Positions 1 through 60,641 of a stretch of DNA of 60,913 bases are shown here, piece by piece. Position numbers and translations under genes: made by a program. The notes beneath the pieces are model-generated. The model worked only from the letters and a program-made list of their open reading frames with translations. It was not told the origin of the DNA and did no database searches. Position 1 is the first letter of the stretch; each line of letters starts with the position of its first letter. Source of the DNA: Clostridia bacterium (GTDB taxonomy: Bacteria > Bacillota > Clostridia > RUG12999); NCBI GenBank assembly GCA_022801925.1, contig JAAWTG010000015.1, positions 1 to 60,913 on the forward strand, given 5' to 3'.

Positions 1-178
1 CGGAGGATGCAGATAGGCTGGCGCCTACGGGAGACGACAATCCGAAAGATGCCAAAATATCGCCGTTTTAGGCGGGTTCAAATTGGAAGCGTCAGGCTAT
101 GCAAAAGCGCTAAACAGTATGTGGAGTTCCGTGCGTCAATAGAGGGTCTTGGATTTTGAGGAAAGAATAGAGTTTTGC
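1..178. other. Left edge, no confident gene
   Basis: A short open frame on the plus strand (3-71) could be the last 22 codons of a gene that begins outside the window, but nothing in it is recognisable. The rest, up to the stop codon of the UPF0340 gene, shows no gene, RNA or clear terminator. Confidence 0.3.
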
Positions 179-730
179 CTACAGTAAAGCATTATCATAC
201 ATAGCGCGTTCGCCGCCGATGAATTTGGGACGTACGCGGGCGCAGACTGCACGGGCTTCTCCAATGGTTTTCACGTCCAGTCGGACAGGCACAGCCACCG
301 GAGCAAGATGCATACCAATCAGTGTATCGCCGATGTCCATACCAGCCTGCGCCTGAATTTTTTCCACCGCGACAGGGGCAGAAAAAGCATGATATGCTGT
401 CGTGGCAAAGGAACCACCCGCTTTTGGCTGCGGCACGACATTCACAAGCGGATAGCCATAATATGCCGCTGCTTCTTTTTCTAAAATTAAGGCACGGTTT
501 AAATGTTCGCAGCATTGGGCTGCAAGAAAAATCCCGCGGTCTTTTAAAACAGGATATAAACCGGAAAAAACGGCTTCTGCCAGATTGATACTGGAACTGG
601 AACCGATTTTTTGCCCGCCGATTTCGCTGGAGGAACAGCCGACAACGAGCAAATCTTTTGCTTGTAAATGGGCGGCGTCCAGCAATTGGATCATTGCACT
701 GTGTGCTTCTTGCTTGATTGTATCATACAT
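179..730 (-). CDS. UPF0340 / TIGR01440 family protein (YwlG-like)
   Basis: A 183-residue cytosolic protein of the conserved UPF0340 family, found in most Firmicutes; its biochemical role is unsettled. Family marks are the GCSSSEIGG segment near residue 32, an AAQCCEHLNRAL segment in the first half, and a C-terminal RPKFIGGERAMYDN tail. The start at 730 is preferred to an upstream ATG (763) because GAGGTG lies six bases ahead of it. A SigA-type promoter at 781-809 drives it. The gene is divergent from the sigK middle piece, and its promoter overlaps the 5' edge of that piece. Full length for the family. Confidence 0.85.
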   Translation of the reverse strand: MYDTIKQEAHSAMIQLLDAAHLQAKDLLVVGCSSSEIGGQKIGSSSSINLAEAVFSGLYPVLKDRGIFLAAQCCEHLNRALILEKEAAAYYGYPLVNVVPQPKAGGSFATTAYHAFSAPVAVEKIQAQAGMDIGDTLIGMHLAPVAVPVRLDVKTIGEARAVCARVRPKFIGGERAMYDNALL

Positions 731-780
731 GATAATCACCTCGTCTATAATGTAGGAAGTCAAAATTTGTTTTCTTTTAT

Positions 781-809
781 ATTATAGCAAGTCTAACATG
801 ATTTTACAA
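781..809 (-). promoter_or_regulatory. SigA-type promoter of the UPF0340 gene
   Basis: On the minus strand TTGTAA (804-809) and TATAAT (781-786) are separated by 17 bp, about 50 bp upstream of the start codon at 730. The box pair lies just before the stretch where sigK homology begins. Confidence 0.6.
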
Positions 810-1169
810 GATGTTTGCTGCAATTGTTTCCACAAAGGATGCAGTGCAAATGAAATACTCATGTATTTACGTTCACAGAAAAGGTATAACAATGAGATTT
901 CACTAAATGAATGCGTTGGAACAGACCAGGAAGGAAATGACATTACATTGTTTGATGTTGTTTGGGACGAGACGGAAGATGTGATTGAGGAAGTGGACGT
1001 AAAGCTGCGGATTCGGAAAATGTACCGAAAGATGAAAGACGTTCTGCAAAAACGGGAGCAGCAAATTTTAGTCTGGCGTTATGGACTGAATAATCAAAAG
1101 GCAAAAACACAAAATGAAATTGCAAGTGATTTGGGTATCTCGCGTTCCTATGTATCAGAACGCGTTTAA
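798..1169 (+). CDS. sigK: Interrupted sporulation sigma factor sigK, middle segment (regions 2.4 to 4.2)
   Basis: The frame encodes the back half of a SigK/SigE-type sigma factor: an NEILMYLR segment, the EISLNECVGTDQEGNDITL linker, region 3, and the region 4.2 helix-turn-helix ending LGISRSYVS. Homology starts at 849, exactly at AATGA in the NE codons, where the skin element splits sigK in Bacillus subtilis. The residues before it (from ATG 798) do not look like a sigma factor and there is no ribosome site, so 798 is not a true start. After codon V the frame runs into foreign sequence and stops at once (ERV then stop). The missing RIEKK C-terminus lies at 26867-26938 on the other strand. Region 2 is absent from the window. 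Alternative: a dead gene. Confidence 0.85.
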   Translation: MILQDVCCNCFHKGCSANEILMYLRSQKRYNNEISLNECVGTDQEGNDITLFDVVWDETEDVIEEVDVKLRIRKMYRKMKDVLQKREQQILVWRYGLNNQKAKTQNEIASDLGISRSYVSERV

Positions 1170-1177
1170 GAACAAAA
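1150..1177 (+). other. attL-like recombination site in sigK
   Basis: The shared heptamer ATGTATC (1150-1156, central GT at 1152-1153) joins sigK coding sequence on its left to a 24-bp arm (1154-1177, starting ATCAGAACGCG and ending AAGAACAAAA). The same arm with one mismatch lies at 26939-26962 beside the serine recombinase and the sigK 3' piece. The arm is one half of a symmetric attP of the kind used by large serine recombinases. The site is in inverted orientation relative to its partner. Confidence 0.85.
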
Positions 1178-1363
1178 TATATGGGGAGGAAAAATTGGTG
1201 GAAAAGGTCTGGAAAAAACAGAAATAAGGAAGGAAATTTATGGGATGGACAAGCAGTGAAATGGTGATAATATAAGGGTTTGACGGGATGGTATGTGAAG
1301 GTGTCCCCTGATGTTAAAAACTGTCCATTTACAAAAAAATAGATTATATTTATAATAATATTA
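1178..1363. other. Intergenic region, no confident gene
   Basis: This stretch follows the attL-like arm. An 11-codon reading frame (ATG at 1240) has a good AAGGAAGG site before it, but it is too short to call. No terminator is evident. If the flanking segment inverts, this DNA would lie beyond the recombinase stop codon. Confidence 0.35.
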
Positions 1364-9760: not shown

Positions 9761-10270
9761 ATGAACGAATTTGAATTTAAAAATTCTGGGTTTGATTGTT
9801 GTCCAAGAGATGCGGATGGAAATTTGGTGACGCCTGATAACACACCTATTGTTAGAAATCCGGACGGGACTATCAGACCGCCTTACACGCCGCCGGAGAC
9901 AGGCGGGGTTGCGCCGTCGCCCATGAATCCACCGATAGACCAGGGAGAAAATTCTATTGTGACGCCGCCGGAGGGCGAGTTTAACACGGAAGCATTTCAA
10001 GGGTCTATGCAGCAGATTTTGTCAGATAATATTGGACAGTTTGTCGTCTGTGAATTTATTATTGGGACAGGACCAACGTTAACCGTAAAAGAAGGCGTTT
10101 TATATTCCGTTGGTAGAAGTTTTATTGTTTTATATGAGGAACTCAATCGAAACTATGTTGTCTGTGATATTTTTTCCATCAAATTTGTGACATTCTATCT
10201 GCCCGGACAGCGTCCAAGACGTTATACCAGCGGCGGTGCCACGACCGCAGGAGGCAGAATGAGAAGATAG
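9761..10270 (+). CDS. gerQ: GerQ-like spore coat protein
   Basis: A 169-residue protein. The first 80 residues are Pro-rich and disordered; residues 80-145 (ILSDNIGQFVVCEFIIGTG, then VGRSFIVLYEE and FSIKFVTFY) resemble the C-terminal domain of GerQ, the coat protein that holds CwlJ in the spore coat of Bacillus. The tail is Gly/Arg-rich. The immediate upstream neighbour is cwlJ, which supports the assignment. Similarity is modest, so a different coat protein with the same fold is possible. AAAGGAGG precedes the ATG. Confidence 0.65.
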   Translation: MNEFEFKNSGFDCCPRDADGNLVTPDNTPIVRNPDGTIRPPYTPPETGGVAPSPMNPPIDQGENSIVTPPEGEFNTEAFQGSMQQILSDNIGQFVVCEFIIGTGPTLTVKEGVLYSVGRSFIVLYEELNRNYVVCDIFSIKFVTFYLPGQRPRRYTSGGATTAGGRMRR

Positions 10271-10282
10271 GAAATAACAGCA

Positions 10283-10372: not shown

Positions 10373-10414
10373 TTATCTTTTTTTCTGACTTTGCAACCGG
10401 TCAAGCGCTTCACC
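10373..10414 (-). pseudogene. cotJC: Severed 3' end of cotJC
   Basis: On the minus strand this encodes GEALDRLQSQKKR followed by a stop. That is a normal CotJC C-terminus, missing from the cotJC copy at 23433-24080. Joined through the shared CGCTTCACC to 23561 it continues the frame VHFQRFGEAL. It therefore marks the left boundary of an inserted element. Confidence 0.9.
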
Positions 10415-10437
10415 GATTTTTCCATTTCAAACAGATT
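10406..10437 (+). other. attL of the cotJC element
   Basis: The core CGCTTCACC (10406-10414) is shared with attR (23553-23561). Ten bases inside the core lies TTTCAAACAGATT (10425-10437), the exact inverse of 23530-23542. In the excised circle these two arms would flank the core symmetrically, as expected for a large serine integrase attP. Confidence 0.9.
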
Positions 10438-10513
10438 GCCGGAATCCTTGATTTTATCAGGGTTTTAGGGCATTTTGTTTTGTGCCGAGATTTGGAAAAA
10501 GGAGTGACTTAGT

Positions 10514-11614
10514 TTGAATTTTATTGAAACGATAAATAAAATCAATGAGGTAAGCGGGAGCGGGGCAAATGTTAAGCCCGTCATACATTTTAGAATGGAA
10601 ATTCTTAGTCGCGGAAAAGGGGCGCACCGTTCCGTTGTGGGATATGCTGCCTACTGTGCCGGAACGAGGTTACGCGACGAACGTGACGCTCGTCTTTATA
10701 ACTGGTCGAAGCGGAAAGATATAATTTTTTCCAAAATTATGCTGCCGAAAAATGCACCCCGAAGATATAACGACCGCAAAATTTTGTGGAACGAGGTCGA
10801 AAAAGTTGAAAAAAATAAAAACGCACAGCTGGCGCGGACACTTGTTATCGCTTTACCATCCGAATTTTCAGCTGATACACAGAAGCGGGTGGTCTGTAAT
10901 TTTGTGCAGGAGGCTTTTGTCACTCGGGGGATGTGCGCTGACATCAATCTACATGATAACGGCACAGGGAACCCCCACGCTCATATAATTTTGACTATGC
11001 GCTCTATGGATAAGGACGGGAACTGGATTGCGAAGCAAAGAAAGATTTACGAGTTCGACAATAACGGTCAAAAAATATATGACCGTACCAAAAAACAATA
11101 TAAATGCACTATCCAAAAAACTAATGATTGGGACAACTCTACAAACGTCGAGCTATGGCGGGAAAAATGGGCGGCGGTCTGCAACAAAGAATTTGAACGT
11201 TTAGGATTACGCAAACGCATAACTCATAAAAGTTATCAACGACAAGGGTGTGAGCTTCTCCCTACCCAACACTGTGGCTCTGCGTCTACGGCTATGGAGC
11301 GGAAAGGTTTGCGGACAAAAACGGGCGACGTGAATCGGAGTATTCATTTACAAAATATGAAACTAATTTCCGACATGGTAAGCAAAACATTTCAGATATT
11401 GATGGAAAAATTTAAGGAAATGATTCAATATTTCAAAAAACAAATATCACAGGAAAGCCCGGAGAAAGCGCTAACTATTTGCGGCGAATTGTCATTGGCA
11501 TTCCTCAATCCGGAATACGAGAAACCGAAACTTCCCCAGTACACGCGAAGTTACCGACAATACCAACGGAAATATACCCGCACCCATTCGCGGGATTTCG
11601 TTCCCTCATTATAA
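10514..11614 (+). CDS. MobA/MobL-family relaxase
   Basis: A 366-residue relaxase that would nick the element's transfer origin and lead the strand into a recipient. Seen: the N-terminal block RGKGAHRSVVGYAAYCAG with the candidate catalytic Tyr at about 43-47, and the metal-binding His motif NPHAHIILTMR at about 152. The start is TTG at 10514 with GGAG upstream. A later internal ATG just before the RGKG block is possible. It is shorter than many MobQ relaxases, with no helicase part. It precedes the coupling ATPase by 18 bp. No clear oriT was identified; the 100 bp between attL and the start are the likely place. Confidence 0.85.
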   Translation: MNFIETINKINEVSGSGANVKPVIHFRMEILSRGKGAHRSVVGYAAYCAGTRLRDERDARLYNWSKRKDIIFSKIMLPKNAPRRYNDRKILWNEVEKVEKNKNAQLARTLVIALPSEFSADTQKRVVCNFVQEAFVTRGMCADINLHDNGTGNPHAHIILTMRSMDKDGNWIAKQRKIYEFDNNGQKIYDRTKKQYKCTIQKTNDWDNSTNVELWREKWAAVCNKEFERLGLRKRITHKSYQRQGCELLPTQHCGSASTAMERKGLRTKTGDVNRSIHLQNMKLISDMVSKTFQILMEKFKEMIQYFKKQISQESPEKALTICGELSLAFLNPEYEKPKLPQYTRSYRQYQRKYTRTHSRDFVPSL

Positions 11615-11632
11615 AAGGAAAGGATGAAAGAT

Positions 11633-13288
11633 ATGAGAGTGAATATAGATTTATCAAATCAAAAACAACGGTCGCTTAACAATATCGAAAAAATTTTCTG
11701 GGGTAGAAAACCCCTAACCCAATCGAGCAGTCTTGGAAAAACCGTTGACGCAATGCCCAAAACAAAGGACGGTCATATTCTGGCTGTTGGTTCAACAAAT
11801 AGCGGTAAAACATCCTGTTTTGTAATTCCGGCGCTGAGAAGATGGTCGGGGCGTGTTTTTTGTATAGATATTAAAGGAGAGCTTTATGAGCATACCCAAA
11901 AACAAAGAACCAATATAAAGGTTTTTGACCCGCTCAGTGAGTCAACCTATGGATTTGACCCGTTCGAGGCATTAAGTAAAACAAAAAACAAAGCGCCGGA
12001 AGCGGAAGCAATCGCGGCGGCGCTCATCCCAATGTCACCAGATGTGAGAGAGCGTTTCTGGTTGGATAGTGCGCGAAATTTACTTACCGGATGTATTTTG
12101 CATTTCCACAGGGAAGGAAAAACCTTTTTGGAAACAATCAAAGCAATTTTAACACCCGCCGCCCCTAAAAGTGATTTTAAACCCATCCGCGTGCCGCCGT
12201 TTGCAAGGCTAATCGAGGACATCTACGAAAACACAAAATCAGAAGAAGCGAGGAAGTATATATCAGCATTTGTTGGATTAGACGATAAGCCTATGTCGAG
12301 TATCTACACGGAACTCAGCCGCCATATTGCGCGATTTGTGACGGACAAGGATATAGTAAATTGCCTTTCGCAGGAAAAGCGGATAAGCCCCGACGATTTA
12401 GAAAACGGACACGATATTTACATATGCGTTCCGGAATACCGTTTGGAGCAATGGCGAAGCTTACTAACTCTGATGACAAGTCAATTCATGCGAAACTTTG
12501 AAAAACGTCCGGATTTAACAGAAACCCCCATTCTTTTTATGTTGGACGAATTTGCACGGTTGGGGAAAATTGAAGGAATCGTCAATGCGTTTGCGACTTT
12601 GCGAAGTAAGAAAATTACAATATGCGCGGTTGTGCAAAGTCTGGCTCAAATCGACTTGATTTACGGCGAGCCAACAAGGAGAGTCATTGTTGATAATTGC
12701 TCATATATTGCGATATTTGCGGTCACTGACGCAACAAGTCAAGAATATTTTAGCTGTTTAATTGGTGGAAAGTACACATGGAATCCCAGCGTTGGCTGGT
12801 CTTTCCCGCTGTCGGTGAATGCCAATATCAGTAGAAACCGTGACCCCCTAATTTACCCCGAGCAGCTTGCAACTTTGAATTTTATCATTGCGCTAATGCC
12901 GGACGGTGTATTCCGGCTGGAGAAAATTCCGTTCTTTTTCAAACGTCTTGAGCAAAAAGCGCTTTTTGTCACTTCCGCTAATGATAATGCCAACCACTCT
13001 TACAAGCTGACGGACGAAGAATGGAAACAAGTTGAACCGCTTTTGCCGCCGCAACGTACCGGACAGAAAGGAAAGCCGCCGAAAAGCCATAGGCTGATGA
13101 TTGACGCAATCTTGTGGCGTGCGCGTGTTGGAACAAAATGGTCGGAGCTTCCGGAAGAATACGGCTCTTATAAAACGGTAAACGAGAGATTCCGCAGATG
13201 GTACGACAGCGGATTGCTTAAAAATATTTTTGATACACTCGGCGCTGTCGGCGATTACGAAAAACTTGTCCGTATCCGGACGAACTGA
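11633..13288 (+). CDS. VirD4/TraG-type coupling ATPase fused to an IS5-type DNA-binding domain
   Basis: A 551-residue protein. Residues 53-61 are a Walker A (GSTNSGKTS) and about 299-309 a Walker B (LFMLDEFARLG), as in type IV coupling proteins that feed relaxase-DNA into the secretion channel. No N-terminal membrane segments are present, unlike canonical VirD4. From about residue 456 the sequence changes into the N-terminal domain of IS5-family transposases (YKLTDEEWKQVEPLLPPQ, then WSELPEEYGSYKTVNERFRRW), stopping right after DYEKL, before any DDE catalytic residue. This may be an IS insertion scar or a useful fusion. The start at 11633 is chosen over 11624 because of ribosome-site spacing. 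Confidence 0.8.
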   Translation: MRVNIDLSNQKQRSLNNIEKIFWGRKPLTQSSSLGKTVDAMPKTKDGHILAVGSTNSGKTSCFVIPALRRWSGRVFCIDIKGELYEHTQKQRTNIKVFDPLSESTYGFDPFEALSKTKNKAPEAEAIAAALIPMSPDVRERFWLDSARNLLTGCILHFHREGKTFLETIKAILTPAAPKSDFKPIRVPPFARLIEDIYENTKSEEARKYISAFVGLDDKPMSSIYTELSRHIARFVTDKDIVNCLSQEKRISPDDLENGHDIYICVPEYRLEQWRSLLTLMTSQFMRNFEKRPDLTETPILFMLDEFARLGKIEGIVNAFATLRSKKITICAVVQSLAQIDLIYGEPTRRVIVDNCSYIAIFAVTDATSQEYFSCLIGGKYTWNPSVGWSFPLSVNANISRNRDPLIYPEQLATLNFIIALMPDGVFRLEKIPFFFKRLEQKALFVTSANDNANHSYKLTDEEWKQVEPLLPPQRTGQKGKPPKSHRLMIDAILWRARVGTKWSELPEEYGSYKTVNERFRRWYDSGLLKNIFDTLGAVGDYEKLVRIRTN

Positions 13289-13323
13289 AATAACATATTA
13301 TACATTAGTACATAAAAGCAATC

Positions 13324-13356
13324 ACCCGCCGCTGAGGTTCAGCGGTGGGTATTTTT
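13324..13356 (+). terminator. Terminator after the coupling ATPase gene
   Basis: A 12-bp stem with one G-T pair (13324-13335 with 13339-13350) closed by a 3-base loop and followed by ATTTTT. Confidence 0.8.
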
Positions 13357-13374
13357 ATATCCAGAAAACGGTAC

Positions 13375-13410
13375 TTTTTACGGATATAAAAAAGGATAGT
13401 TTTACGGATA
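13375..13410. repeat. Two direct repeats of TTTTACGGATA
   Basis: TTTTACGGATA occurs at 13376-13386 and 13400-13410, each followed within three bases by an A-rich stretch, with a 24-bp period. Possible operator or protein-binding iterons upstream of the Mor-like gene. Confidence 0.4.
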
Positions 13411-13505
13411 GCAAAAAAGATATGTTTGGGATTTGAATTATGGCATTTGCGGTTGTTATAATTTTCTGGGATTGTCGAAATTCCTGTGGAAAGGGGGGAT
13501 GAACG

Positions 13506-13856
13506 GTGATTGACATTGATTTCGACAATATAAATGACGAGATGATTTATGAGGCATTTGGTGTGGAAGGGAAAGAGTCAGAGGCTTTAAGCGATATTTA
13601 TCTGGAACTGTTTGAACTTCTCGGAAAGGAGGCAATGTTAAAAATATTTCGGCATTTTCACGGCGATAAAATTGACTGCCCTATGAGGCTGTATCGTCCG
13701 GAGTTTATCGCAGACCTTGCAAAGCCTGTGACTGACCGCCGCGAACGGGCAAAAATTGCAAGAGCTGGAGGGTATTCAGCCAAAGTCATTGAAGGAATGT
13801 TGAGTAAACGAAGGAAAGAAAACGAAGAAGAGGAAAATAGCAAGACGAGGAGGTAA
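13506..13856 (+). CDS. Mor-like transcriptional activator, small DNA-binding protein
   Basis: A 116-residue protein with the layout of the Mor/C activator family: a dimerisation half (YLELFELLGKEAMLKIFRHFHGDKIDCP) and a C-terminal basic helix-turn-helix region (RAKIARAGGYSAKVIEGMLSKRRKE). The GTG start at 13506 is preceded by GGGGGGA. It ends four bases before the RCC1-SLH gene and is likely cotranscribed. Its target in the element is unknown. Assignment rests on pattern similarity only. Confidence 0.5.
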   Translation: MIDIDFDNINDEMIYEAFGVEGKESEALSDIYLELFELLGKEAMLKIFRHFHGDKIDCPMRLYRPEFIADLAKPVTDRRERAKIARAGGYSAKVIEGMLSKRRKENEEEENSKTRR

Positions 13857-13860
13857 AAAA

Positions 13861-16161
13861 ATGAAAAAACAATTATTGTCCTTAGTATTGGCATTGTCAA
13901 TGCTTATGACTATTGCGAGTGCTTCGCTGACCGTATTAGCCGCAAATGAAATTACCAGTGAAAAAATTGATGTCACGCAAACGGGAGATTTCCCCACAAT
14001 CAGCGTGAGTGATTATGGTGTTTTTGCCATTAAAAGGGATGAAAATTTGTGGTTTTATGGTCCCGAAAAAATAACAGAGAGGTGGAAAAAACAAACAATC
14101 AAGATTATGGATGGCGTAAAGGCTGTTAGCGCCGCAGGTATAAATGTTTTTATGATTCAAAAGGACGGCAGCTTATGGATTGGGAAACATAATATTGAAT
14201 CAGACGAAACAAAGCTGTGGACACCGGTAAAGATTATGGACAACGTGAAAGTAATTGGCGCCAACCAAAACAGTGTATTAGCTGTTAAATATGATAATAG
14301 TCTTTGGCTTTGGAGCGCAAACGATTATGGCGTGTTTGGTGAAGGAACCGAGGAAAAAATCATGGATGATGTAAAAGCAGTCAGCGCCGGCACCGGTTAT
14401 TATATGGCAATTAAGAATGATGGAAGCCTTTGGACTTGGGGTAACAATGAGTACGGTCAACTGGGAGACGGCACAACAGAAAACAGAACAGCGCCGGTCA
14501 AAATTATGGACAATGTGCGAACAATAAGCGCAGGTCGTGTACATAGCTTTGCAATTAAAAATGACGGAAGTCTGTGGGCATGGGGTAGCAACGAATGCGG
14601 ATTGCTTGGTGATGGCACTGCTACCGTTAAATTTGTTGAAGCTGGATGGTTTGATGTTATACTGAGCGAGGTTGAGGAAGGTTATCTGACAGAAGCGAAT
14701 AACGACCGAACAACACCGGTTAAAGTGATGGATGATGTAAAGGCGGTCGGAGCAGGATACGCTTACAGCTTGGCGGTAAAAAATGACGGAAGTCTTTGGA
14801 CTTGGGGCAGTATAGCGATTAGACCATCTAACGTCAATCCTAAGTACAAGGCGGATGTTTACAAGGCTTATGCTCCCGATAAGCTGATGGATTATGTGGT
14901 ACTTATTGACCCCGGTGTTTATGATGATGCAATTGCAGTTAAAAGTGATGGTACTCTCTGGTCATGGAGAGGAGAACAGCTTATGGATGATATTATGTTA
15001 TCCACCGAAGCGGATGATGTATCAGTTCCAACCGAGGTATCGCCCGGCGAACAACCGGACGCGCCGTCATCATGGGCGGAAGCTGACATTTCAAATGCAA
15101 TAACACTTGGTTTTGTCCCACAGGAATTACAAAGCAAATTTGTACAGGCAACAACACGCGCGGAATTTTGTTCATTGGCTGTAGCGTTATACGAAACCAA
15201 GACGGGAAATACCATTACAAAACGAACGACTTTTAATGATACAAAGGATGAAAATGTGGAAAAGGCAGCGGCAATTGGTGTTGTGTCGGGCGTAGGCAAC
15301 AATATGTTTGAGCCTGACGGTCAATTAACCCGCGAACAGGCGGCGACCATGCTGTCCCGGTTGTCGGAAGTGATTGGCTGTCCGCTCACAAACCAAACAA
15401 CAGATTTTGCAGATATGGGTAGTATATCATCATGGGCGGCTGAAGCAGTCGGAAAAGTTCAGGCAGCAGGCATTATGAGCGGTGTCGGCGATAATATGTT
15501 TGAGCCGCAGGGGCTTTATACACGCGAGCAGAGCATTATTACAATGCTGCGTCTGCACAATGTAATTTCGACCACTAAGCAAACAAATACAACCACCGAG
15601 CAAACGAATGTGACCACAAATAAAGCGTTATCGGAACTGGTTCAAGATTCAGAGTACGTTTCTTTTACAATGGAAATGAACGGGGTATCAATGGGACAAT
15701 TGGAAGTGCTAAAAAGAGACGGGACGTATTTTTTCAAAATACTGCATATAGCCGAGCCGTTTGGGTTGACAGTTGAAACGACCGCTATGGGTGATTTATA
15801 TGATGATACCTCAATTTGGCAGCTGACAAATGGTTCCCATTGGATAACTATGCAGGGCGAAAAGAATGAGGTCATAATAGACAATACACGGATTCCGTTA
15901 GAGACCGGAATTAGGACATTTCAGAGTGAGGTGGTTAGACATCATCGCTCGTTTAAGGACACTGGGATGCCTTATGAATTATATCTTGCTATGTATCCCA
16001 CAGGTTCGAAAGAGGGTTATGAAGAAGAATACGACTATATCGACCGAGTTACTTTCCAAAGGATTTCCCTGCAAGCTGTACAGGCTATAGCAGAGGCTTG
16101 CGGTGCAACCTTTACCTTGGATGAAAACGCCAAAATAGTAAGAATTGAATACAATAAGTAA
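13861..16161 (+). CDS. Secreted RCC1-repeat protein with SLH anchor (element cargo)
   Basis: A 766-residue exported protein. Residues 1-28 are a signal peptide ending TVLA. About 40-380 are RCC1-type beta-propeller repeats (NDGSLWTWGNNEYGQLGDGT and repeats of it), about 410-570 are three SLH repeats, and the last 150 residues form a beta-rich domain. RCC1-type propellers in bacteria are usually binding modules. GAGGAGG precedes the ATG. It is the only surface protein on the mobile element and uses the same anchoring as the host's own enzymes, so it probably changes the cell surface of the carrier. Function unknown. Confidence 0.75.
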   Translation: MKKQLLSLVLALSMLMTIASASLTVLAANEITSEKIDVTQTGDFPTISVSDYGVFAIKRDENLWFYGPEKITERWKKQTIKIMDGVKAVSAAGINVFMIQKDGSLWIGKHNIESDETKLWTPVKIMDNVKVIGANQNSVLAVKYDNSLWLWSANDYGVFGEGTEEKIMDDVKAVSAGTGYYMAIKNDGSLWTWGNNEYGQLGDGTTENRTAPVKIMDNVRTISAGRVHSFAIKNDGSLWAWGSNECGLLGDGTATVKFVEAGWFDVILSEVEEGYLTEANNDRTTPVKVMDDVKAVGAGYAYSLAVKNDGSLWTWGSIAIRPSNVNPKYKADVYKAYAPDKLMDYVVLIDPGVYDDAIAVKSDGTLWSWRGEQLMDDIMLSTEADDVSVPTEVSPGEQPDAPSSWAEADISNAITLGFVPQELQSKFVQATTRAEFCSLAVALYETKTGNTITKRTTFNDTKDENVEKAAAIGVVSGVGNNMFEPDGQLTREQAATMLSRLSEVIGCPLTNQTTDFADMGSISSWAAEAVGKVQAAGIMSGVGDNMFEPQGLYTREQSIITMLRLHNVISTTKQTNTTTEQTNVTTNKALSELVQDSEYVSFTMEMNGVSMGQLEVLKRDGTYFFKILHIAEPFGLTVETTAMGDLYDDTSIWQLTNGSHWITMQGEKNEVIIDNTRIPLETGIRTFQSEVVRHHRSFKDTGMPYELYLAMYPTGSKEGYEEEYDYIDRVTFQRISLQAVQAIAEACGATFTLDENAKIVRIEYNK

Positions 16162-16242
16162 AAGAGCGAGGATATTGTTCAAGATTGCGAAACAGTACGA
16201 ATAATATCAGGAAATAGAGCTTAATTGGAATAAAATGATTTT

Positions 16243-16274
16243 ACACCTTCCCATATCGGGAGGGTGTATTTTTT
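16243..16274 (+). terminator. Terminator after the RCC1-SLH gene
   Basis: A 10-bp stem with one G-T pair (16243-16252 with 16258-16267) followed by ATTTTTT. Confidence 0.8.
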
Positions 16275-16307
16275 ATGCCCAAAAATGCGAAGGGAGGTGA
16301 TTTTACA

Positions 16308-16430
16308 ATGGGAAATAAGGCAAGAGCTGTCGGAGAAGTAGCGAGAGCGACCGGTGATGTAGCAAAAGCGCTGGTTGCCGTGGTTGGGCTGGCAACGGTG
16401 ATACTGTTTGAAATCGGAAAAAACAGATAG
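16308..16430 (+). CDS. Small 40-residue hydrophobic protein
   Basis: The start at 16308 has a strong AGGGAGGTGA eight bases upstream; an in-frame ATG at 16275 has none. The protein starts MGNKARAVGEVARATGDVAK and continues into a hydrophobic helix (ALVAVVGLATVILFEIG) long enough for one membrane span. It lies 77 bp before the amidoligase gene. Function unknown; such small membrane proteins are easily missed by annotation. Confidence 0.6.
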   Translation: MGNKARAVGEVARATGDVAKALVAVVGLATVILFEIGKNR

Positions 16431-16507
16431 CCTATATCCGGAGCGTATCCCGCTCCGGATAAATCTTTTCAATGAGAAAAAATATGTTTGGGAGGTAAAA
16501 TAAAAAA

Positions 16508-17644
16508 ATGTTTGAAATATTAGAAGCTATACTATTGGAAGCCTGTTCCGAATGCGGAAACGACTTTGAGCAAGGAGAGTTGACCGAGTTTGACGGCGAG
16601 CGTCTATGCACAGATTGTCTGGACAACAATACCTTTGTATGCGCCTGCTGCAATGAAAGGCATTGGAACGACAACCAATACGGGGATTGCGACACGCCGC
16701 TATGTGAAGCGTGCTACGAGGAATACTATACCCGTTGCGAGGGCTGTAACAGCGTTATCAGGCGAGACGAGGCGAATTATGAGGAGGACGACGAGGACAG
16801 CGAGTGTCCCTATTGCGATTCCTGTTATAACTATAACGGCGAAGGGCGGTATCTGCACGATTACGGTTATAAACCCTCGCCGATATTCTACGGCGAAGGC
16901 AAGCGGTATTTTGGTGTGGAGCTTGAAATCGACAAGGGCGGTAAGGAAAACGGGAACGCCAAAACCATAACTAAACTTGCGAATCAATCGGGCGATAATA
17001 TTTATATCAAAACAGACGGCAGCTTAGACGACGGCTTAGAAATTGTTACACACCCTATGACGATTCAATATCATATGTCGAAAATGCCGTGGCAGGATAT
17101 TTTACATACGGCTGTCAGATTGAGGTATCAATCGCACAAGGCTACCACCTGCGGACTTCATATTCATGTCAACCGCGACAGCTTAGGTGAAAACGTAAAA
17201 GAACAGGACGAATGCGTGGGGCGCATATTGTTTATTGTAGAGCGGTTTTGGTCGGAGCTTCTGAGGTTTTCGCGGAGAACGGAAAACCAGATAAGGCAAT
17301 GGGCGAACCGATACGGCTACAAGGAAAATCCATCAGAAATTTTAGACCATGCAAAAAAAGGAGAGCGCGGTCGGTATGCCGCTGTCAATATTACAAACTG
17401 GAACACCATAGAATTTCGATTGTTCCGTGGGACGTTAAAATACAATACTTTGATTGCCACATTGCAGCTCGTAAACGAGATTTGTGATGTGGCTTTTTTC
17501 ATGTCTGATGAAGAAGTCGGGGCGTTGTCTTGGTGTGATTTTGCTGAAAGGCTTGACCCCGAAAGACATTCGGAATTGATAACTTATCTCAAAGAGCGGC
17601 GGCTGTATATCAACGAGGCGGTTAATAGTGAGGAGGATGAATAA
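16508..17644 (+). CDS. Amidoligase-family enzyme with N-terminal zinc-finger region
   Basis: A 378-residue protein. Residues 13-106 contain repeated CxxC pairs (CSEC, CTDC, CACC, CEAC, CEGC, CPYCDSC), a LIM/treble-clef-like metal-binding block. From 135 the protein matches the predicted COOH-NH2 ligases (amidoligase family): FGVELEI (135-141), GLHIH (216-220) and EFRLFRGT (302-309). Family members are predicted to form amide or isopeptide bonds using ATP. The next gene overlaps by one base and encodes a class II glutamine amidotransferase, the known genomic partner. The substrate is unknown and may be a protein or peptide. Confidence 0.8.
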   Translation: MFEILEAILLEACSECGNDFEQGELTEFDGERLCTDCLDNNTFVCACCNERHWNDNQYGDCDTPLCEACYEEYYTRCEGCNSVIRRDEANYEEDDEDSECPYCDSCYNYNGEGRYLHDYGYKPSPIFYGEGKRYFGVELEIDKGGKENGNAKTITKLANQSGDNIYIKTDGSLDDGLEIVTHPMTIQYHMSKMPWQDILHTAVRLRYQSHKATTCGLHIHVNRDSLGENVKEQDECVGRILFIVERFWSELLRFSRRTENQIRQWANRYGYKENPSEILDHAKKGERGRYAAVNITNWNTIEFRLFRGTLKYNTLIATLQLVNEICDVAFFMSDEEVGALSWCDFAERLDPERHSELITYLKERRLYINEAVNSEEDE

Positions 17645-18579
17645 TGTGTTGTTTATTCGGCATTTATGATTACAATAATTATTTCAATAAAAAGCAGAGA
17701 AATATCATACTTTCCGTACTTTCAACGGAATGTGAAGCAAGAGGCACAGACGCTACGGGGATTGCCTATAACGCAAACGGCAAGCTTAATATATTCAAGC
17801 GTCCGCTTCCGGCTCACAAAATAAAATACCAAACGCCGGAGTTTGCAAAAGTCATTATGGGACACACCCGTATGGCTACACAGGGGAGCAGAAAACGGAA
17901 TTACAATAATCATCCGTTTGCGGGACAAGCGGGTAATACTTTATTTGCTTTCGCCCATAACGGTATTCTCTATAATGATGAACTTATAAGAAAGGACAAA
18001 AAATTACCCAATACCAAAATCCGGACGGACAGCTATATTGCCGTTCAGCTTTTGGAGCAGGAGCGCGCATTAACCTTTCAAAGCCTTGCGAAAATGGCGG
18101 AAACGGTAGACGGTTCTTTTACTTTCACCGTTCTGGATAATGGCGACAATCTGTATTTTGTGAAGGGCGATAATCCGCTATGTATTTATCACTTTGTCAG
18201 CGCGGGATTTTACATATACGCTTCAACAAAAGAGATTCTGGATAATGCGCTGAAACGACTGCGGCTGAATAAAAAAGCGCATAAGGTAGTCCCCAGTCAT
18301 TGCGGTGATATTATCCGCATTGATACCGGCGGGAATATAGCGACATCAAGGTTTGATACCCGCGCGTTATCCTCTTTGCAGTATTATTTCAGACCGTATC
18401 GGTGTTCCTTTTATGATTATCCAGATTGCGATTATCCGGATAATGAACATTTACAGACAGTCCGCGAAATGGCAGGGACATTCGGTTATTCGCCGGAAGA
18501 TGTAGATTGCCTGTTAGCAGAGGGATACACGCTTGATGAAATCGAAGAAGTCTTTTATGGAATTGATATGTCCCAATAG
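17644..18579 (+). CDS. Class II glutamine amidotransferase
   Basis: A 311-residue Ntn hydrolase of the GATase II fold. The start MCC places Cys2 at the mature N-terminus as the expected nucleophile. RGTDATGIAY, GHTRMATQGS and AHNGILYND are the usual glutamine-site motifs. It lacks the large synthase domains of PurF, GlmS or AsnB, so it probably supplies ammonia, or carries out a related amide step, for its neighbour. It overlaps the amidoligase stop codon (TAATG), implying coupled translation. The C-terminal 80 residues are Tyr/Asp-rich and end in a short helical domain. Confidence 0.8.
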   Translation: MCCLFGIYDYNNYFNKKQRNIILSVLSTECEARGTDATGIAYNANGKLNIFKRPLPAHKIKYQTPEFAKVIMGHTRMATQGSRKRNYNNHPFAGQAGNTLFAFAHNGILYNDELIRKDKKLPNTKIRTDSYIAVQLLEQERALTFQSLAKMAETVDGSFTFTVLDNGDNLYFVKGDNPLCIYHFVSAGFYIYASTKEILDNALKRLRLNKKAHKVVPSHCGDIIRIDTGGNIATSRFDTRALSSLQYYFRPYRCSFYDYPDCDYPDNEHLQTVREMAGTFGYSPEDVDCLLAEGYTLDEIEEVFYGIDMSQ

Positions 18580-18592
18580 GGTACAGCGTACA

Positions 18593-18652
18593 AACGGAAC
18601 GTCCCATAAACCGAAAACCAACTCTATTGGCACGGTTTTCGGATGTTCCGTT
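18593..18652. repeat. Large dyad upstream of the small resolvase (possible res site)
   Basis: AACGGAAC (18593-18600) and ACCGAAAACC (18610-18619) recur in inverse order at 18634-18652, with a 14-base centre. Weaker outer matches flank it (CCCAATAGGGTAC at 18572 and CCCCATTGGTAC at 18661). No T-run follows, so a terminator is unlikely. A recombination or operator site for the next gene is a reasonable guess. Confidence 0.45.
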
Positions 18653-18690
18653 AGAGTACACCCCATTGGTACGGGAAAGGAGAGAAGGTT

Positions 18691-19239
18691 ATGAAAATAG
18701 GTTATATTCGTGTCAGCACCATCGACCAGAACACAGCGCGTCAGGAAGTGCTGATGAAAGAGCTTGGCGTTGATGAAGTCTACATAGATAAGGCAAGCGG
18801 CAAAAGCAAGGACAACAGAGCGCAATTATATACTATGCTTGAATACGTCCGTAAAGGCGATACCGTCATAGTGGAATCTATCAGCCGTTTTGCCAGAAAT
18901 ACAAAAGACCTTTTGGAGCTTGTGGAAATTCTTACCAAGAAAGAAGTGGAATTTGTATCTAAAAAAGAAGCGATTGACACAACCACGCCCACAGGGAAAT
19001 TTATGCTGACAATATTCGGGGCGGTCGCAGAACTGGAACGCGAATATATTTTACAGCGGCAAAAAGAGGGCATTGCGATTGCGAAGTCCGAGGGAAAGTA
19101 TAAGGGGCGCGCACGAAAGGAATACCCCGATTTTGATAAGATTGTCGGGCTGTGGCGCAACGGAAAAATCACCGCCGCCGAAGCTATGAAACGTTTGGGT
19201 ATGAGTAAGACAAATTTTTATAGGAGAGTGAGAGGGTAA
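18691..19239 (+). CDS. Small serine recombinase (resolvase/invertase)
   Basis: A 182-residue enzyme of the Tn3-resolvase/DNA-invertase class: YIRVSTIDQN (catalytic Ser9), ISRFARNTKDLLEL, GAVAELEREYILQRQKEG, and a C-terminal helix-turn-helix (ITAAEAMKRLGMSKTNFYRRV). Full length. AAAGGAGAG precedes the ATG. It probably resolves multimers of the excised circle or acts on the dyad just upstream. It is distinct from the large integrase at 21126. Confidence 0.85.
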   Translation: MKIGYIRVSTIDQNTARQEVLMKELGVDEVYIDKASGKSKDNRAQLYTMLEYVRKGDTVIVESISRFARNTKDLLELVEILTKKEVEFVSKKEAIDTTTPTGKFMLTIFGAVAELEREYILQRQKEGIAIAKSEGKYKGRARKEYPDFDKIVGLWRNGKITAAEAMKRLGMSKTNFYRRVRG

Positions 19240-19301
19240 GCGCTACCCTCTCCGCTTATTCTTTGCGTAGCGTAGCGTAGCGAAATTATATACCACAAAA
19301 A

Positions 19302-20054
19302 TTACTCTTGTTGCATGGACTGTATTTCGTTATATAAAACTTCCAAATTTTGAACTCTTGATGTGATTTCTTCCTGAAACACCAGTCTGTTCGTTTGAGG
19401 TAAGAGGAAGTAAAACTCACTGTCATCCCTTGGCAGCATATACTGTCCCAAAAACTCGTTGTATTCATCTATAAGTATCGTGAAATCTATTATTTTGCCT
19501 AATACAGGTTCATTGCTGTCTCGAAATTCATACAGTTTAGTCTTTATTTCGGATACAAACGCACAAACATCATCAACTAAATCCATTAAAATACGAGATA
19601 TTGAATCGTTTTGCAAAAAATCTAAAATATTATGGTTTTTAACCGCTTGATTGAATATTCCAAGCATACGTTCTTTGGGTGACTCTATCCATGGAAAACC
19701 AAGAATTTCATAGAATTGTTTTAGTAAACTTAAATAAAACGCTAAATCATCTGCGGGGTTACAGTCTACGACCCCAGTATCTTCCAATTTTCGGAATGCT
19801 TCTAAAAGTATCTGCCATGTATCAGCAGTATTATCTTTAAAATATTTAATAAAACCGGCTTTGTCAACTTTGTATTGCGGGAAGTAAGTTGTGGGCTGTG
19901 CCATGTTCTTTCTTTTAAACCATTGCTTTACAACTTCTGGGCTGATTCCATCTACACTTCCGGCAGCTTGACAAATGTTAATCACAAGACCTTCACGGGT
20001 GCAATCAAAAATTTTAGTATCATTTATTGTTTTAAAAAAGTCAGTAAATGTCAT
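19302..20054 (-). CDS. Hypothetical protein of the mobile element
   Basis: A 250-residue, mostly helical, soluble protein not recognised. It is the only element gene on the minus strand besides the cotJC fragments. The N-terminal 70 residues (REGLVINICQAAGSVDGISPEVVKQWF) could be a small DNA-binding fold with a helix-turn-helix. GAGGGGATG precedes the ATG. Two 16-bp direct repeats lie 27 bp upstream of the start, which would suit autoregulation. Confidence 0.5.
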   Translation of the reverse strand: MTFTDFFKTINDTKIFDCTREGLVINICQAAGSVDGISPEVVKQWFKRKNMAQPTTYFPQYKVDKAGFIKYFKDNTADTWQILLEAFRKLEDTGVVDCNPADDLAFYLSLLKQFYEILGFPWIESPKERMLGIFNQAVKNHNILDFLQNDSISRILMDLVDDVCAFVSEIKTKLYEFRDSNEPVLGKIIDFTILIDEYNEFLGQYMLPRDDSEFYFLLPQTNRLVFQEEITSRVQNLEVLYNEIQSMQQE

Positions 20055-20080
20055 ATCTTCATCCCCTCGTTAATTCGTTT

Positions 20081-20118
20081 GTCCCCTTGCTGTACCCCCT
20101 CTGTCCCATTGCTGTACC
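20081..20118. repeat. Two direct repeats upstream of the minus-strand gene
   Basis: GTCCCCTTGCTGTACC (20081-20096) and GTCCCATTGCTGTACC (20103-20118) have a 22-bp period, two helical turns. The related words TGTCCCA and GGTACAGC occur near the dyad at 18570-18600. Candidate operator or recombinase-binding motif. Confidence 0.5.
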
Positions 20119-20244
20119 TTGGCAAATCGCATTGCCATCCGTTACACTAAAAACAGCGCTAAACAAGAGCGAATATATTCTACCATATCTCGCCATTATT
20201 TTCAAGCACGTGTGATTTTGAAAAAATAGAAAGGAGGAATTGCA

Positions 20245-20901
20245 ATGCAAAAAAGCATTTTGAAAATGGATAGAATTTCCAGAAACCGCTACCATACGGT
20301 TTTCAGAAACAATCACGGACGGAGGATATACCTCTGTCTGAATTATAGGAATAACGAGGTTTTAATCACGAATTGTTTTTACATAGACAGACCAGAAAGG
20401 AACGGTACCAAAGCCGTTCCGCACAGATTTAAAACATCACGCTGTGCGCGCGAAAATTTACTTGATGTATTGGCTGACGAGCTTGACAAAAGATTTTTTG
20501 ACATTGAGTTTTCTGAAACTGAAAACGACGTATCCGCTGATGAATACATCAGATTCAAAAGCGCGGATAAGCCAAAATATAAGTTCTTGATTCTGATAAA
20601 CAGCGGCGATTCATATAAAACAAGATTGAAAAATCGTGTTCACAGGTCTATCTATCTTGAAATCAGCCGCAACGGTAACAACGGAATTATTACTGACTGT
20701 CATTATTATGACCGCCAGTATAAGCGCAACAATGCCTACATATCACCATCAGGGTTGACAAGCATTACCTTTGATTTCAGCCTTGACAATATACGCAGAA
20801 TCGTTAATAACGAGCTTAACTGCGATTTTACAGACGTTATCATCACAGAGGATACCTTTGGTTTTGATAATACTTTACTGCCGATTTGCGGCAGTATTTA
20901 G
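20245..20901 (+). CDS. Hypothetical protein with an internal domain duplication
   Basis: A 218-residue protein not recognised. It has two related halves: GRRIYLCLNYRNNEVLITNCFYIDR in the first and HRSIYLEISRNGNNGIITDCHYYDR in the second, each followed by about 40 residues ending in a D..DIEF or FTDVII strand. The basic Arg/Lys content suggests nucleic-acid binding. AAAGGAGG precedes the ATG. Probably an element accessory protein. Confidence 0.55.
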   Translation: MQKSILKMDRISRNRYHTVFRNNHGRRIYLCLNYRNNEVLITNCFYIDRPERNGTKAVPHRFKTSRCARENLLDVLADELDKRFFDIEFSETENDVSADEYIRFKSADKPKYKFLILINSGDSYKTRLKNRVHRSIYLEISRNGNNGIITDCHYYDRQYKRNNAYISPSGLTSITFDFSLDNIRRIVNNELNCDFTDVIITEDTFGFDNTLLPICGSI

Positions 20902-20951
20902 ACAAGTCATATTTGCATAAAATAGTAGATATAGATTTATGAAAGGAGTTT

Positions 20952-21089
20952 ATGATTATGTCAGAATATACCGACGTAAAAAACCACACATATCAAATCA
21001 AACAAAGTTCGCTTGCAGGTAATCCGCAAGTGGTGCAGAGTAAAGAGGAAATCATTGAGGCATTGTACTGCATTTTTGATAAGCGATAA
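20952..21089 (+). CDS. Small 45-residue protein upstream of the integrase
   Basis: It reads MIMSEYTDVKNHTYQIKQSS and onward to IIEALYCIFDKR. AAAGGAG lies upstream; ATG 20958 is the alternative start. The stop is 36 bp before the integrase start, so cotranscription is likely. A short acidic-helical gene before a serine integrase could be a directionality factor, but that is only a guess. Confidence 0.5.
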   Translation: MIMSEYTDVKNHTYQIKQSSLAGNPQVVQSKEEIIEALYCIFDKR

Positions 21090-21125
21090 TTATAAAAAAA
21101 TACTGAAAGGAAGGAAGTGTTCAGG

Positions 21126-22646: not shown

Positions 22647-22725
22647 TTAAAGCTATTGTTTTTATATGAAGAGTATGGTATAATAATATTATTATAAATG
22701 ATACAAGGATTCGGAGGTGTATCGT

Positions 22726-23064
22726 ATGTGTACTAAAAATCAACTTGATATAATATTGAGAAAAATTACTGATTATGCAAAAGAATTGTTTGGTGATAAA
22801 TTCAAAAATGTAATTCTTTACGGTTCCTACGCGCGCGGCGATTATGATGAGGAATCTGATATTGACATAATGATTATGGTTGATATGTCAAGAGATGAGC
22901 TTTATAAGTACCGCAAACTTATGAGTGATTTCTGTGCCGATTTGGATTTGGAAAATAATGTGTTTTTATCTCCTAAATTACAAAGTGTTTCATTTTTTAA
23001 TGAATGGAAAAATACACTTCCTTTTTATCAGAATGTAATAAAGGACGGTGTATTGTATGCCTAA
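22726..23064 (+). CDS. MNT-type minimal nucleotidyltransferase (antitoxin-like)
   Basis: A 112-residue protein with the polymerase-beta fold signature GSYARGDYDEESDID (Gly-Ser at 33-34, Asp pair at 45 and 47). ATG 22726 has GGAGGTG seven bases ahead; GTG 22717 lies inside that site. The gene overlaps the following HEPN gene by eight bases. In MNT-HEPN pairs the transferase usually neutralises its partner, in some cases by adenylylating it. Likely a maintenance module of the element. Confidence 0.8.
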   Translation: MCTKNQLDIILRKITDYAKELFGDKFKNVILYGSYARGDYDEESDIDIMIMVDMSRDELYKYRKLMSDFCADLDLENNVFLSPKLQSVSFFNEWKNTLPFYQNVIKDGVLYA

Positions 23065-23458
23065 TGAAAATGAGTATAAAGCCGCGCTTTCAAAATACAG
23101 ACTGGAGAAAGCACAAGAGAGCTTGAAATACGCAAAAATTCTAATGGATAACGGAGGATATGCCGAAGCTGTAAATCGCGCTTATTATTCTATATTTCAC
23201 GCGACAAGAGCGGTGCTTGCCATTGATGGCGCGGACAGGAAAAAGCACTCCGGCGTTATTTCATATTTTCAAGAAAACTATGTAAAAACGGGCGCTTTTG
23301 ATAAGGAGTGTTCGTATATTTTGAAAAATGCTTTTAGCATTCGTCAGGAATCTGATTACGAAGATTTTTATGTTGTATCAAAAGACGAGGCGCAAGCACA
23401 AATTGATAATGCCGAAACTTTCTTGAAAAAAGTTACAGAATATTTATGTAAACGATAA
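23057..23458 (+). CDS. HEPN-domain protein, partner of the MNT transferase
   Basis: A 133-residue all-helical protein of the HEPN/UPF0332 class (ESLKYAKILMDNGGYAEAVNRAYYSIFHATRAVL). The classical RNase motif RxxxxH is not evident, so RNase activity is uncertain. Translation overlaps the MNT gene by eight bases. Its stop lies only about 100 bp from attR, making it the last gene of the element. Confidence 0.75.
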   Translation: MPNENEYKAALSKYRLEKAQESLKYAKILMDNGGYAEAVNRAYYSIFHATRAVLAIDGADRKKHSGVISYFQENYVKTGAFDKECSYILKNAFSIRQESDYEDFYVVSKDEAQAQIDNAETFLKKVTEYLCKR

Positions 23459-26866: not shown

Positions 26867-26938
26867 TTAAACACCACGCACGTCGCTCTGCATGGATTTG
26901 TTTAATTTTTCCAGTGCTTTTTTTTCAATTCGCGATAC
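26867..26938 (-). CDS. sigK: Interrupted sigK, 3' terminal segment
   Basis: On the minus strand, after the GT core, the frame reads (V)SRIEKKALEKLNKSMQSDVRGV and stops at 26867. SRIEKKALEKL is the typical end of region 4.2 in SigK/SigE factors. It completes exactly the piece that stops at 1152 on the plus strand (LGISRSYV). The codons just before the core belong to the recombinase-side arm, not to sigK. This fragment has no start codon of its own. Confidence 0.9.
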   Translation of the reverse strand, partial: VSRIEKKALEKLNKSMQSDVRGV

Positions 26939-26962
26939 ATCAGAACGCGGTTAAGAACAAAA
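26934..26962 (-). other. attR-like recombination site beside the sigK 3' end
   Basis: The heptamer ATGTATC on the minus strand (26934-26940, GT core at 26937-26938) joins sigK 3' coding sequence to the arm at 26939-26962. That arm matches 1154-1177 in 23 of 24 positions and overlaps the last codons of the recombinase gene. The core points opposite to that of the site at 1150, so recombination between them inverts the intervening 25.8 kb. Confidence 0.9.
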
Positions 26963-28507
26963 ATGTGGTCTCGAAAAACGGAAATCAATCTGTATATGTT
27001 GCTCCGGTGTCACTTCAATCCGGTCAATGAGCAAACTCCAAATCCCTTTTTCTGTTTGCGCATTTTCCCAGAAATAATGAACAAGTTCTTGTGGCGTCCA
27101 TTGTTTTTTGGCTTTTTCATCGTCTGCAAGTCGTCTCTCCAATTGGATTTTTTCTTCTTTTTTCTCCCGATACATCTGCTTAAAATCTTCTGTTTCAAGA
27201 ATTCCGGCTACTCTGTCTGCGTAGAGTTGTTTCAAAAAAATTTCTAACTGTTGTAATTGTATTGTAATTTGCCGTTCTCGGCTTCCGCTTTGACGATTTA
27301 TTTCTGTTTGAAGTATTTGCCGTGCATAATCTTCCCAATCAAAACATTGCTCCGCCAGTTTTCGTATTTGTTCTATGACCGCGTCCCGAACCACTTCTTC
27401 CCGTATCATATGATGAGAACACGGTGCGACACCTTCTCTTTTGTGATGAGACCGACAACCCAAATAAAGTGTAACCCCAGTTTTAAGCTGTCTTGGAACT
27501 GCACTAAGTCCCATGCCGCAGTTTTGACAAACCATCAATCCTTTGAACAAATAGTCATATTTTCTAACGCGTGTTTTGCTGCGCTGCTGTAATAGATGCT
27601 GCACGGTATAAAAGGTTTCTGTATCTACAATCGCCTCATGGGTTCCTTCCACCACAGTCCACTGTTCCACCGGTTTTTTCAAAATTTTTTTTGATTTATA
27701 ACTGGCTTTTTGTACGCGCCCTTGTACCATATTTCCAATATATACTTCATTTTTCAAAAGAAAAGAAACGCGCTCTGCCCGCCATCTTCCGTCATAGCAT
27801 TCCCACGTTGCCGCAGGCTGTAGTCCTGCATATATCAGCGGCGATGGAATTCCCCTGCTATTGAGCCATCTTGCAATTTCGCTACATGTTTTTCCTTCCG
27901 CTGCAAGTGCAAATATTTGCCGTACAATATTTGCCGCGGGTTCATCTATGATAATCTTATTTTTTTCTTCTTTCGATTTTTGATATCCATAGGGCGCTTT
28001 GCCGCCAATAAACAGCCCTTTTTGCTGCTTATCCCGTTTAACGCTTTTAATTTTCTTGGAAATATCTTTTGCATACATGTCATTGACAACTGCCCGAAAC
28101 GGCGTCACATCGCTCCCATAGGAATCTTCTTCTCCGGAGTCAATCCGATCTAGTAGGGATATATAACGCACGCGATGTTCCGGAAAATATTTTTCCAAAT
28201 AATATCCGGTTTGAATATAGTCCCGTCCCAATCTGGATAAATCTTTTGTTATTACGGTATGAACGCGTCTGTCCTCAATATCCTGAAGCATTTTTTGAAA
28301 TGCTGGACGGTCAAAATGCATTCCGGAATATCCGTCGTCTACATATTCCTGATAAATTGAAATTTGATTTTCCGCCGCATATTTTCGCAGCAAACTTCGT
28401 TGATTACCGATGCTGGAGGACTCTCCTGTTTCTCCATCCTCTTTGGATAACCGTAAGTACAAAGCTGCACCTGGCACACCGCCAATTGTTTTTTCTTCCC
28501 GCACCAT
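26951..28507 (-). CDS. Large serine recombinase adjacent to the sigK 3' end (SpoIVCA-like)
   Basis: A 518-residue large serine recombinase. The catalytic domain has ALYLRLSKEDGE with the likely nucleophile Ser21 and TVITKDLSRLGRDYIQTGYYLE; then a recombinase domain (GKTCSEIARWLNSRGIPSP), a zinc ribbon (CQNCGMGLS, LGCRSHH, CSHH) and a coiled-coil (about 400-470). The stop codon lies within the recombination arm, so the enzyme is physically tied to the site. SpoIVCA, which excises skin from sigK in Bacillus, belongs to the same class. It differs clearly from the integrase at 21126. Start ATG 28507 overlaps the preceding small gene by one base. Confidence 0.9.
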   Translation of the reverse strand: MVREEKTIGGVPGAALYLRLSKEDGETGESSSIGNQRSLLRKYAAENQISIYQEYVDDGYSGMHFDRPAFQKMLQDIEDRRVHTVITKDLSRLGRDYIQTGYYLEKYFPEHRVRYISLLDRIDSGEEDSYGSDVTPFRAVVNDMYAKDISKKIKSVKRDKQQKGLFIGGKAPYGYQKSKEEKNKIIIDEPAANIVRQIFALAAEGKTCSEIARWLNSRGIPSPLIYAGLQPAATWECYDGRWRAERVSFLLKNEVYIGNMVQGRVQKASYKSKKILKKPVEQWTVVEGTHEAIVDTETFYTVQHLLQQRSKTRVRKYDYLFKGLMVCQNCGMGLSAVPRQLKTGVTLYLGCRSHHKREGVAPCSHHMIREEVVRDAVIEQIRKLAEQCFDWEDYARQILQTEINRQSGSRERQITIQLQQLEIFLKQLYADRVAGILETEDFKQMYREKKEEKIQLERRLADDEKAKKQWTPQELVHYFWENAQTEKGIWSLLIDRIEVTPEQHIQIDFRFSRPHFCS

Positions 28508-28650
28508 TATTGCTCACCACCGGTTTGCTGCTCTTTGAGCCTATTTAATATCACTTTTCTAAAACTTTGCTTTAAAACCGTCTGAAGTTCTTCGCCATCC
28601 TCGCGATAAAAACAGGTAATTTCCGGTTTTCTTTGTTGTTTTTCCGCCAT
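28507..28650 (-). CDS. 47-residue protein translationally coupled to the recombinase
   Basis: It starts MAEKQQRKPEITCFYREDGE and ends RLKEQQTGGEQ. AGGAGGG lies ahead of the ATG. Its stop overlaps the recombinase start (TAATG), so the two are made together. A small basic-acidic protein in this position could be a recombination directionality factor or a cofactor; no homology is evident from reading alone. Confidence 0.65.
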   Translation of the reverse strand: MAEKQQRKPEITCFYREDGEELQTVLKQSFRKVILNRLKEQQTGGEQ

Positions 28651-60620: not shown

Positions 60621-60641
60621 AATCCGTGTTTTTTAAATGCA

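Follow-up and report, generated by a model that had tools for sequence, protein, structure and literature searches.

The sporulation sigma factor gene sigK is interrupted in Bacillus subtilis by the skin element, whose recombination core is AATGA, whereas other sigK insertions lack this pentanucleotide (PMC10745906). In the Bacillus cereus group, sigK islands occupy several alternative positions, among them position 195 in Bcbva and position 423 in J7/J62, and the island of Bcbva, which has a gene for a serine-type recombinase, undergoes excision when the cells sporulate (PMC10745906). The attP sites of large serine recombinases (LSRs) are usually palindromic about a central dinucleotide (PMC5595907). 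For two elements, three fragments or an inversion in sigK, the open-licence literature gave single-element cases only.

Here we describe a sigK locus from a Clostridia bacterium, based on a stretch of 60,913 nucleotides (contig JAAWTG010000015.1, hereafter the window) that is one of the 96 contigs of its genome (G000, in which the window is contig C80). We consider it very probable that sigK is a composite of three pieces in this organism, split by two skin-type site-specific elements, termed A and B, each with its own recombinase, and that the pieces are rejoined during sporulation.

A search of G000 with the profile TIGR02846 (RNA polymerase sporulation sigma factor SigK) gave an N-terminal piece on another contig (C5:118521-118853, profile positions 4-113, E 4.4e-43), a middle match in the window (C80:837-1160, positions 107-213) and a weak match to the tail on the minus strand (C80:26891-26950, positions 207-226). 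The window ORF at 798-1169 covers profile positions 107-212 only (E 8.5e-37). Its SigK match begins at residue 14. The SigK-homologous reading NEILMYLRSQ... starts with AATGA (849-853), and an earlier, sequence-only reading of this DNA had correctly placed the onset of sigK homology at 849, at the classical skin place. The preceding residues, MILQDVCCNCFHKGCSA, are unlike sigma region 2, and neither region 2 nor an N-terminal sigK piece was found within the window, so the profile search also bore out that reading on the absence of the N-terminal half. The middle piece proper is bounded by both breaks and spans 849..1154 on the plus strand (102 codons, NEILM...SRSYV; TIGR02846 positions 107-213, E 5.2e-36), with identical extent in G000 and in two sister species (G001 and G002), of which G002 is a MAG from a mouse-gut catalogue.

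The N piece on C5 ends in ...KCIE, followed by AATGCAC..., and stops at the codon that matches the start of the middle piece. The half-sites at this break (site 1), GAAAATGC on the side of the N piece and GCAAATGA on the window side, share AAATG, and joining the two pieces at this common sequence yields KCIENEILMYLRSQ, in frame (CIE followed directly by NEILMYLR). The three species of the genus agree in the position of this break and in the in-frame join. Identity with the B. subtilis skin site, as had been proposed, holds for the place in the gene and for AATGA on the window side, but AATGA is not duplicated: the N side reads AAATGC, and the common core is AAATG. An AATGA repeated at both ends characterizes the B. 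subtilis variety rather than skin at large (PMC10745906). The same correction of the core applies to the suggestion that a region-2 fragment ending just before AATGA should lie elsewhere in the genome next to a serine recombinase: the fragment on C5 does lie beside a large serine recombinase gene and joins in frame, but at AAATG rather than AATGA. That ORF 798-1169 has no part in any programmed rearrangement, being instead a truncated sigma protein in its own right or an ordinary pseudogene fragment, seems extremely improbable to us; it has an ATG of its own and a frame open to 1169, but it lacks region 2, and the matching pieces, the in-frame joins and the recombinases are conserved in three species.

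The window-side half-site, attR of element A, lies at 824..875 (plus strand), with the common AAATG at 848-852 and a presumed AA crossover dinucleotide at 849-850. The attP rebuilt from the window and C5 half-sites is palindromic at 19-21 of 25 arm positions about the central AA (G000/G001/G002). The recombinase gene following the N piece on C5, here called recA, is in convergent orientation and runs to the end of the contig. A single contig carries N piece, recA and middle piece in either sister species, the distance from N to middle piece being about 2.7 kb in G001 and 2.9 kb in G002; a DUF436 (YwlG-like) gene is located between recA and the middle piece, preceded by small ORFs in G001. This gene forms the right end of element A in the window (179..763, minus strand; PF04260, E 4.9e-74). 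In G001, recA is full length and encodes the three LSR domains (Resolvase, Recombinase, Zn-ribbon), and it occupies the same place in G002. Element A thus combines a sigK split that is restored in frame with a large serine recombinase gene at its end, which in G000 is incomplete: recA is cut by the contig end, its first ~131 residues including the catalytic serine were not found anywhere in the G000 assembly, and for the final ~60 bases of C5 the sister species gave no match. The stretch of element A in G000 is interrupted between C5 and C80, on the window side likely because the window begins in a multi-copy, dispersed MITE-like repeat. The part of this repeat inside element A (1..104, plus strand) has matches at 19 places in G000 and at 15 in G001, many of which are at contig ends; full copies carry terminal inverted repeats of about 23 bp (AGCCTGACGCTTCCAATTTGAA), and G002 has no copies. 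We also considered a very large element A hidden behind the C5-C80 break, and dropped this idea in view of the size of the element in the sister species and of the repeat at the window start. A second short dispersed repeat is present at about 1364-1426 and at 60641-60703 of the window; 60641-60703 is also matched by the G001 counterpart of the region that follows the middle piece (63 bp, 97%).

At its other end, the middle piece reads ...SRSYV and then runs into a stop (SERV, stop). The C-terminal piece, 22 codons (SRIEKKALEKLNKSMQSDVRGV) plus the stop codon, lies at 26867..26935 on the minus strand. The cut (site 2) is located in region 4.2, the helix-turn-helix of the sigma factor, so that a SigK protein without the tail should be unable to read -35 elements. 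Beside the tail lies recB (26951..28507, minus strand), which encodes a large serine recombinase of 518 aa with Resolvase, Recombinase and Zn_ribbon_recom domains. The two recombinases are distant from each other, recB being absent from the recA matches in G000 at E 1e-10. A gene in three pieces with two different recombinases, one of them outside the window, had been suggested from the window alone; our data support this, with recA outside and recB inside. The half-sites of element B share GTATC: attL spans 1130..1180 (plus strand; GTATC at 1152-1156, with the crossover presumably at GT, 1152-1153), and attR spans 26910..26965 (minus strand; GTATC at 26934-26938) and is inverted relative to attL. 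In the attP rebuilt from both ends, 23 of 25 arm positions (22 in G002) fit a palindrome about the central GT, a level far from that of random window positions, none of which reached 18 in 20000 trials (best, 17). Site-specific joining in silico restores sigK in frame at this site as well. An ORF of 47 aa (28507..28650, minus strand) overlaps the start of recB by one base; it may be a candidate directionality factor, by its likeness to skr, which overlaps spoIVCA (PMC6957869). Neither this ORF nor the small ORFs in elements A and B gave a Pfam match.

The protein obtained by joining all three pieces scores 308.7 bits against TIGR02846, and N plus middle piece without the tail 286.2; the curated whole-protein cut-off of 298.65 bits is passed only by the three-way join. 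All sigK pieces are under purifying selection. Between G000 and G002, dN and dS are 0.027 and 0.389 in the N piece, 0.008 and 0.510 in the middle piece, 0 and 0.861 in the 22-codon tail, and 0.072 and 0.612 in recB. The tail protein of G000 is identical to those of G001 and G002, the comparison with G002 giving 7 synonymous and 0 amino-acid changes; such purely synonymous change in an unjoined tail is best explained by use of the tail after rearrangement. SpoIIID scores above its cut-off in all three genomes, and SigE and further sigma factors of sporulation are likewise present. The three species share both breaks, while sigK is unbroken in the other genomes of the family.

Among 391 genomes of the class, the recB search found homologs of 39-50% identity, several beside sigK tails; seven genomes were then tested for their sigK, and six of them have it cut at profile positions 212-215. 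We also scanned named genomes with a recB alignment and examined the best 80 loci. At 67 of these 80, the recB relative adjoins a sigK site-2 piece, being placed beside the tail in 57 cases and convergent with an N+middle piece that ends at the same codon in 10. Carriers include Pseudoflavonifractor capillosus, Flavonifractor plautii, Butyricicoccus pullicaecorum, Oscillibacter, Marasmitruncus and many gut MAGs; site 2 is common in gut Oscillospiraceae. A three-piece sigK with the same two sites occurs in G227, where N and middle piece are 22 kb apart on contig C84, the tail is on C106 and the recombinases are separate, and also in UBA1701 (L153) and RGIG8669 (L186), for which the N piece itself was not among the sequence fetched. 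In three further loci (L146, L191 and L192), sigK seems to be cut near codon 64-70 in addition to site 2, and this extra break is close to position 195 of Bcbva. Doubly interrupted sigK is therefore recurrent among lineages. In another genome, G027, sigK is broken at a different position (C25:28412-28828 and C5:46533-46802 of that assembly, profile 144/138), which is close to position 423 of some B. cereus strains (PMC10745906).

The ends of site 2 face each other in the window (attL at 1152 on the plus strand, attR at 26934-26938 on the minus strand), and the direct half-site orientation expected for excision is not found for element B in G000. Because its ends are inverted, the site-2 break of G000 is not a simple skin, and rejoining of the locus as assembled would require a 25.8-kb inversion. 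Joining middle and C-terminal piece would invert the segment 1154..26936 (25,783 bp); performed in silico, this inversion gives an intact middle-tail junction, ...SRSYVSRIEKKALEKLNKSMQSDVRGV and stop, and leaves the rebuilt attP beside recB. The inverted order in G000 is implied by one draft contig, and a combination of excision and inversion is attractive yet unproven; a rearranged sigK junction was not seen in any of the assemblies.

The three-piece, two-recombinase gene could be real and the inverted order an assembly chimera, the true order being direct and both elements being excised, which we take as a serious possibility without thinking it probable. In G002, contig C202 has the order middle piece, SLH protein, large SLH-tailed protein, cell-wall hydrolase, x169 (corresponding to window 9761-10270) and a stretch homologous to contig C71 of G000, and contig C207 resumes this stretch from the very next C71 base and continues with recB, tail and leuA. 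This order of contigs suggests that site 2 is direct in G002, with the excision geometry and about 34 kb between its ends. Direct order was also seen at all 13 relatives' loci with both site-2 ends on one contig, at distances of 4-10 kb, to which the fetched flank of about 10 kb sets the limit. At the window junction near 10281, moreover, x169 is joined to the cotJC terminator via only 7 bp of common sequence (AGCAAAC). Seven base pairs are, however, far below assembler word sizes, which makes a false join unexpected, and the junction between recB and araC is common to G001 and G000, so that part of the rearranged neighbourhood is present in two assemblies. Local synteny with outgroups having an intact sigK, considered for the ancestral order, revealed no common neighbours.

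Less likely, and in our view rather doubtful, is a genuine inversion that disables the gene: a rearrangement of the chromosome would have moved one end of element B and left sigK a relic in this lineage. The direct site-2 order elsewhere and the incomplete recA of the G000 assembly would fit such a relic. The tail, on the other hand, is without amino-acid change, and dN/dS is low in the other pieces and in recB, although a recent loss would not show yet; the sporulation regulators are retained, and both half-sites are intact.

The window also harbors a 13.1-kb mobilizable element (10406-23561), which splits the 3' end of the sporulation gene cotJC and encodes a MobL-type relaxase, a TraG-like coupling protein and serine recombinases (18691-19239 and 21117-22646). 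Its core, GGTGAAGCG, is present on both sides, and joining there gives FGEALDRLQSQKKR and stop, as in G002. G001 carries most of the element (10406-20814) at 99.8-100% identity, with different sequence flanking its left end. In G002, cotJC is broken too, elsewhere in the gene and by unrelated sequence (L061:18103-18197, L073:1-1517). An equation of this mobilizable element with element B was dropped, given its own core and its location in cotJC.

Returning to the composite three-piece gene, we propose the following course of events. Element A, whose site is of the B. subtilis type (the codons NE following CIE), would be served by recA, and element B, 22 codons before the end of sigK, by recB. 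Each recombinase would act on the two half-sites of its own element and rejoin them in the course of sporulation, the mother cell being the most likely place. For element A, this step would be excision of a small element, of about 2.7-2.9 kb as in the sister species; for element B, it would be excision of about 34 kb in G002, if the order there is direct, and the 25.8-kb inversion in G000 as assembled. Two DNA rearrangements would then probably be needed before completion of the spore, and full-length SigK would arise only once both rejoining events are done. Late sporulation might thereby be secured by a two-key lock, in which one recombinase would excise DNA and the other, independently of it, would invert DNA, a reading that we find plausible and put forward tentatively. 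If it is true, inversion would turn skin from a deletion device into a switch without loss of DNA. Whether stacked intervening elements serve to time sigma-K or to lock it for safety, and whether inversion rather than excision can restore a developmental gene, thus becomes open to experimental testing. As to annotation, surveys of sporulation in gut genomes may miss sigK in such species or label it broken.

Earlier descriptions of skin concern one element per gene; here, two kinds of skin would reside in one gene. Site 1 resembles the site of B. subtilis skin (SpoIVCA) in having AATGA at the same place of the gene and palindromic half-sites, and element A resembles skin in the adjacent large serine recombinase gene, convergent to the 5' piece. 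Unlike B. subtilis skin, which measures 48 kb, element A comprises only about 2.7-2.9 kb, has the common core AAATG and is accompanied by a second element in the same gene. The insertions of the Bacillus cereus group differ in that they are single per gene, are excised, and none is located at the last 22 codons (PMC10745906). The gin element in gerE of Bacillus cereus ATCC10987 is likewise a non-phage intervening element with serine recombinases whose host gene is restored in sporulation; it differs in affecting another gene, with one break, in housing three recombinases inside one element, and in being excised (PMC5595907). In Clostridioides difficile, skinCd (CD1231 with CD1234) is one element that is excised, and like recB its recombinase gene directly precedes the 3' sigK piece; site 2 may or may not equal the skinCd insertion codon. 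CD1231, the C. difficile skin recombinase, can invert DNA between engineered inverted att sites (attP x attB) in a test plasmid (PMC5025042).
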